A stretch of 64,000 nucleotides of DNA, from assembly GCA_021792365.1 (NCBI GenBank), contig JAJYUT010000001.1, positions 124,001 to 188,000 on the forward strand, read 5' to 3'. The DNA comes from Pseudomonadota bacterium (GTDB lineage: Bacteria > Pseudomonadota > Alphaproteobacteria > Dongiales > Dongiaceae). Numbering within the stretch: position 1 is the first letter of the stretch; every line of letters starts with the position of its first letter. The notes under the pieces are model-generated. The model worked only from the letters and a program-made list of their open reading frames with translations. It did not search any database and had not been told where the DNA came from. Positions 58,894-58,998 of the stretch are shown in pieces. A program made the translations under genes and the position numbers.

Positions 58894-58998
58894 CTACTTC
58901 TTCTTCGCGGCCTTCTTCTTGGCGCCCTTCTTCGACGCCGCCTTCTTCACACCCTTCTTCTTGGCGGCCTTCTTGGCAGCCAGTGCGATACTCGTCAT
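58894..58998 (-). CDS. 34-residue Lys/Ala-rich basic peptide coupled to mdh
   Basis: A short frame from ATG 58998 to TAG 58894, with a second TAG directly after, encodes 34 residues. Fifteen are Lys and ten Ala; the sequence opens [16 protein letters not shown] and continues in KKAA/KKGA blocks to a triple-Lys end. Its ATG overlaps the mdh TGA (ATGA), so translational coupling is likely, with the ribosome site inside the end of mdh (GGAGAG). Histone H1/AlgP-like Lys-Ala repeats bind DNA or RNA in other proteins. Role here unknown. It is too short for many gene callers. Confidence 0.6.

Follow-up and report, generated by a model that had tools for sequence, protein, structure and literature searches.

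The window, a stretch of 64,000 nucleotides from a bacterium of the family Dongiaceae (Alphaproteobacteria), carries on its minus strand the gene for malate dehydrogenase (mdh, 58995-59960), whose 321-amino-acid product matches the NCBIfam models TIGR01763 and NF004863 above cut-off. Upstream of mdh lies zapE (60113-61297; NF040713), used below as a control for C-terminal tails, and the next gene downstream is sucC (57456-58622; NF001913). Both are on the minus strand and were likewise named above cut-off, as were sucD and a more distant sdhB-type gene. Between mdh and sucC there is a gene for a Lys/Ala-rich microprotein of 34 amino acids (58894-58998, minus strand), recognised from its sequence and from its presence in genomes of the same family. 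The initial annotation had described a peptide of 34 residues, 15 of them Lys, that begins inside the mdh stop codon, and this is correct: the ATG of the peptide (58998-58996) shares its TG with the TGA stop codon of mdh (58997-58995), forming an ATGA overlap. The Lys/Ala peptide is encoded by the minus strand, and the plus strand of 58894-58998 reads differently.

The composition of the peptide is far from chance. Besides Lys it contains 10 Ala, and it reaches 15 Lys within 30 residues, whereas none of the window's other 976 stop-to-stop segments of 30 or more amino acids exceeds 6. The DNA of the gene consists of degenerate tandem repeats, with periods of 12, 15 and 27 bp. A Pfam scan of the 34-mer gave no match, and the NCBIfam scan gave only a chance-level match to DNA polymerase IV (E 0.34). 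No second copy of the peptide was found in its own genome by protein search, and an AAG-only KK-repeat pattern occurs there in the window ORF and in one other region, C11:134600-134749. By eye, this region and the loci L215, L219 and L220 of family genomes hold longer Lys/Ala-rich, H1-looking frames that are not linked to mdh. Low-complexity genes of around 34 codons are often discarded by annotation.

Translation of the microprotein appears to be provided for within mdh itself. A GAGGAG ribosome-binding site (59006-59011, minus strand) lies in the last mdh codons, with its GGAG core 7 nt upstream of the peptide ATG, which is preceded by the sequence AAAGAGGAGAGAAGCA. The codons for the C-terminus of MDH (...RKLQRGEKQ) thus double as the ribosome-binding site of the peptide, which is contained in those for RKLQRGE.

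Conservation was assessed in 17 genomes of the family, of which 15 have a full-length mdh, the others being G009 and G001. A Lys/Ala ORF of 29-88 amino acids is found directly behind mdh in 15 of the 15. Its length is 34 amino acids in the window's own genus (3 genomes), 34-50 in genus g6 (7 genomes), 29-34 in three other genera (4 genomes) and 88 in one (1 genome). The overlap with mdh is ATGA in 13 of the 15, TAATG in L004 and TGATG in L012, although the L012 junction can alternatively be read as TTGA with a TTG start. All 15 genomes have the peptide in frame -1 with respect to mdh and an AGGAG core at the junction. A stop-start overlap together with its own ribosome-binding site, as expected of a translationally coupled small protein, is kept at 15 of 15 family junctions. 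The tandem TAG with which the peptide was said to end is present in the window, where a second TAG (58891-58893) stands directly behind the TAG stop codon, as it is in all three listed members of the genus. It is not a kept feature of the family, in which L004 has TAG TAA and the other 11 listed members have a single stop.

The search of G001, a genome of 68% completeness, yielded no mdh and no copy linked to mdh, and both of its matches to the KK-repeat pattern lie within other genes. The only additional family locus that a profile of the microproteins brought up was a weak match (G003:C3:455608, E 0.22), which belongs to a different frame of 370 codons. The profile overlooked known copies in five genomes (G000, G002, G003, G005 and G007) and is therefore insensitive on such low-complexity sequence.

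Three pairs of congeners differ within the ORF at 11 nucleotides in total (5, 5 and 1), and all 11 differences are synonymous; an unconstrained sequence would give a fraction of about 0.27 (log10 P = -6.3). The wider pair L006/L008 shows 13 synonymous and 3 non-synonymous differences. These substitutions indicate purifying selection on the peptide frame in the pairs tested. It is very probable that the peptide represents a genuine protein-coding gene.

Genome G009 offers a natural case of partner-gene loss. Its locus is otherwise syntenic (zapE - (mdh) - sucC - sucD - sucA), with mdh reduced to a decayed pseudogene (L112:6380-6973 on G009:C54). At the protein level only residues 265-307 are recognised, with 72% identity, while the DNA alignment reaches a score of 332, compared with at most 105 for 50 shuffles. 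The remnant contains frameshifts, lacks about 370 bp over the aligned stretch, and has stops in all frames. Directly behind it a Lys/Ala ORF of 67 amino acids is intact, preceded by the ribosome-binding site GAGGAGAGAAGCA, with a spacing of 9 nt between GGAG and ATG rather than the 7 nt found in the window. Neutral decay would leave an open frame of the K/A/P type with a probability of 0.33 at 2% divergence, 0.06 at 5%, and 0.004 at 10%. Unless the loss of mdh is very young, the peptide in G009 appears to have been kept for its own sake. The decay could be young, and at 2% divergence chance alone would leave the frame intact in a third of cases. Malate:quinone oxidoreductase (Mqo), as a substitute for the lost enzyme, had no match in any of the 17 family genomes; G009 does retain a distant LDH/MDH-like gene, with 29% identity over residues 59-307. 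As read from these genomes, the microprotein gene is a kept frame with the architecture of stop-start coupling, and in G009 it is unbroken although mdh is not.

In the window, sucC begins 271 bp past the stop codon of the microprotein; across the family this distance ranges from 161 to 304 bp. Inspection by eye of an alignment of 15 family intergenic regions identified a promoter-like element, TTGAAC-16 nt-TAAATT (58773-58800, minus strand), that sits between the microprotein gene and sucC, with a similar element recurring across the alignment. In 10 of the 15 family members it is accompanied by a GCTGCACCACAGCA block, again as aligned by eye. Consensus scans for promoters and terminators found nothing, the TTGAAC-16-TAAATT element included, and an Rfam scan of 58500-59100 gave no match.

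For comparison beyond the family, 192 loci were assembled from the 80 best named matches, 30 loci of the relatives search, 22 further top loci of a class search, and 60 regions picked from the upper part of the class-search listing, in which 337 of 386 class genomes had a match. Eight identical mdh copies and L132, for which no stop was seen, were dropped, leaving 183 loci, 15 within the family and 168 outside it. The latter are skewed towards MDHs near that of the window (71-80% identity). C-terminal tails were counted past MDH position 312, or past the matching near-end point in other proteins, and had to comprise at least 18 residues with at least 25% K+R and at least 60% K+R+A+P+T. The rule was applied to mdh, sucC, sucD and zapE outside the family.

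The initial annotation had proposed looking for the same overlap in related alphaproteobacteria, where its absence beside a retained mdh would speak against the gene. Within the family this check did not count against the gene, since the frame accompanies mdh in all 15 genomes with a full-length copy, but none of the 168 distinct loci from other alphaproteobacteria has a coupled Lys/Ala ORF behind mdh, although mdh is present. In place of the coupled frame, 28 of the 168 have an in-frame Lys/Arg/Ala-rich C-terminal tail of 18 to 153 residues fused to MDH, and every MDH tail of at least 18 residues in the sample (28/28) is of this kind. A separate Lys/Ala ORF behind mdh occurs in 3 of the 168 loci, namely L021 and L094, where it precedes sucC, and L166, where sucC lies outside the view. 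Among the control genes no such tail was found (sucC 0/118, zapE 0/58, sucD 0/48; 0/224 in total); long tails are present in 17 of the 58 zapE products, none of them Lys/Ala-rich by the rule. The difference between 28/168 and 0/224 gives a Fisher p of 1e-11, which ignores relatedness and takes three neighbouring genes as controls. A cruder tail rule, with family members included, gave 11/107 for mdh, 1/76 for sucC and 0/68 for zapE, the single sucC match (L064) being a 16-residue extension that is below the later limit of 18 residues. The tailed MDHs include those of the isolates Denitrobaculum tricleocarpae (L051) and Hwanghaeella grinnelliae (L066). Tails of 80-153 residues are carried by the MDHs of L135, L142, L066, L182, L051, L151 and L069.

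One group of 40 rows in the MDH tree (SH-aLRT 91, not starred) takes in every one of the 15 coupled rows together with 10 of the 28 fused ones. Parsimony requires at least 17 changes of the fused label, as counted on a quick tree that has many weak branches and in which the family is not monophyletic. The number of independent tail gains is therefore uncertain, and for the same reasons the tree does not establish whether fused tails preceded detached ones or the reverse.

By composition the peptide groups with histone H1-like basic proteins, to go by its sequence. It shares a Lys/Ala repeat composition with the histone H1-like nucleoprotein HC2 (PF07382; NCBIfam NF038052 and NF038053), to which some longer relatives of the window peptide are weakly matched. 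Measured against the Pfam cut-off of 40 bits, the window peptide has no match to HC2, and the family versions score 12.9 (G009), 11.1 (L012) or not at all (a 50-amino-acid form). Of the separate ORFs, L021 scores 23.4 (E 7e-5, below cut-off) and L094 has no match. Five fused MDH tails were scored, of which L051 (41.6) and L069 (70.9) pass, L099 (17.9) fails, and L151 and L182 have no match. Because it fails the membership score the peptide is not assigned to HC2, and unlike HC2 the scanned family versions stay under the cut-offs, belong to a family of 29-88 amino acids, and are tied to mdh.

In Pseudomonas, AlgP (AlgR3) and PhaF contain Lys/Ala/Pro repeats; DNA binding and the organisation of polyP or PHA granules have been reported or proposed for these repeat tails (PMC9239181). 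The window peptide is a Lys/Ala(/Pro) repeat polycation of the same sort. In AlgP and PhaF, however, the repeats are long tails on other domains (154 amino acids in AlgP, compared with 34 for the window peptide), whereas here they make up a separate microprotein and elsewhere a tail on a metabolic enzyme. An AlgP/PhaF-type protein would have a KPAA repeat of about 150 amino acids behind another domain; the window peptide has neither KPAA units nor another domain. The G009 version and several from genus g6 do contain such units. Similar Lys/Ala tails are found within the family on a DNA topoisomerase I-like and a ribosomal protein L29-like protein (L211 and L217, named by eye). Unlike the window peptide, these tails form part of nucleic-acid-binding proteins whose genes lie elsewhere. 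Titles and opening lines of abstracts returned by a literature search made no mention of Lys-rich MDH tails or of an mdh-coupled peptide. The setting, a microprotein coupled to the gene of a TCA-cycle enzyme, with H1-like tails on MDH elsewhere, appears to be new.

Several explanations for the microprotein can be weighed against these data. It might be a detached MDH tail that still works with MDH, docking to the enzyme or its surroundings as a basic patch for tethering or for steering malate and oxaloacetate electrostatically from one enzyme to another. Its tight coupling to mdh translation, the fused tails on 28 of 168 MDHs as against none on 224 control ends, and the placement of coupled and fused rows in one group of the MDH tree are all consistent with such a role. 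It is nevertheless unlikely, since G009 keeps the peptide after losing mdh (though the distant LDH/MDH-like gene is present), no MDH-docking motif is visible in the peptide, and the parsimony count on a weak tree lends no support to a step from fused to detached. That programmed -1 frameshifting at the end of mdh yields an MDH-tail fusion, as in loci where the tail is in frame, is extremely unlikely. The peptide does lie in the -1 frame in 15 of 15 genomes and fused tails do exist in other lineages, but ATGA, TAATG and TGATG overlaps produce a -1 frame anyway, the peptide has a conserved ribosome-binding site and start codon of its own, and no X XXY YYZ slippery heptamer was seen at the mdh ends of L001 and L011, the two that were read by eye.

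Lys-rich nascent chains are able to slow ribosomes. The initial annotation had considered that the poly-Lys run could pause ribosomes and act on mRNA stability, and the position of the gene between mdh and sucC would suit a regulatory stall tuning mRNA stability or sucC expression, with the peptide itself being useless. This is quite improbable: over the 15 family genomes the Lys codons are nearly all AAG (267, compared with 20 AAA), peptide length varies from 29 to 88 amino acids, the G009 frame persists without an intact mdh, and the region has no Rfam match. A stall controlling sucC is unlikely because sucC is 161-304 bp away, behind the recurring TTGAAC-16-TAAATT-like element (seen in the alignment by eye and missed by the consensus scan). 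Slippage of AAG/GCC units could also have given rise to a tolerated basic frame with little function, as the degenerate tandem repeat and the differences in length between genera might suggest. Such an origin without function is very improbable, given that the three congener pairs differ at synonymous sites only, that ribosome-binding site and overlap are kept in 15 of 15 genomes, that the G009 frame is intact, and that the neighbouring genes sampled are without such tails.

The preferred explanation, and a fairly likely one, is that the peptide acts as a free-standing H1-like polycation, binding to nucleic acid or polyphosphate and being made in step with MDH. The initial annotation's picture of a coupled microprotein with H1-like Lys/Ala repeats is supported; nucleic-acid binding is plausible by analogy with AlgP, PhaF and HC2, and an H1-like, polyanion-binding role in the broader sense is likely. 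Ribosomes finishing mdh would re-initiate at the ATGA, and the peptide would thereby be made in proportion to malate dehydrogenase. The AAKK-type repeat may be disordered (unfolded) or helical, and it would bind a polyanion, be it DNA, RNA or polyphosphate, irrespective of sequence, in the way reported or proposed for the AlgP and PhaF repeats. In the window's family the tail would have become, or have been recruited as, a separate protein. Since other alphaproteobacteria fuse a similar tail to MDH, a basic tail made together with the enzyme seems to be recurrently useful, for example in placing it at the nucleoid or at a polyphosphate body.

That the gene is conserved across the family, and that its partner has been lost naturally in G009, suggests that the peptide is retained in its own right. 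The Lys/Ala-rich MDH tails, which had no counterpart on the sampled neighbouring genes, suggest a connection of polyanion binding with an enzyme of the TCA cycle. A broader proposal, possible but doubtful, is that the alphaproteobacterial mdh locus repeatedly gains an H1-like polycation, fused in several lineages and coupled but free in the window's family, as a general device that would tether an enzyme of central carbon metabolism to polyphosphate or the nucleoid. MDH synthesis would then also determine how much of a chromatin-like or polyP-binding factor is made.

Outside the mdh locus, the family protein at L211 resembles, by eye, a topoisomerase I that bears a Lys/Ala tail. In the window, approximately seven tandem 14-bp repeats (GATCAGATGCCGGA) are located at 63134-63232, directly behind the sdhB-type gene.
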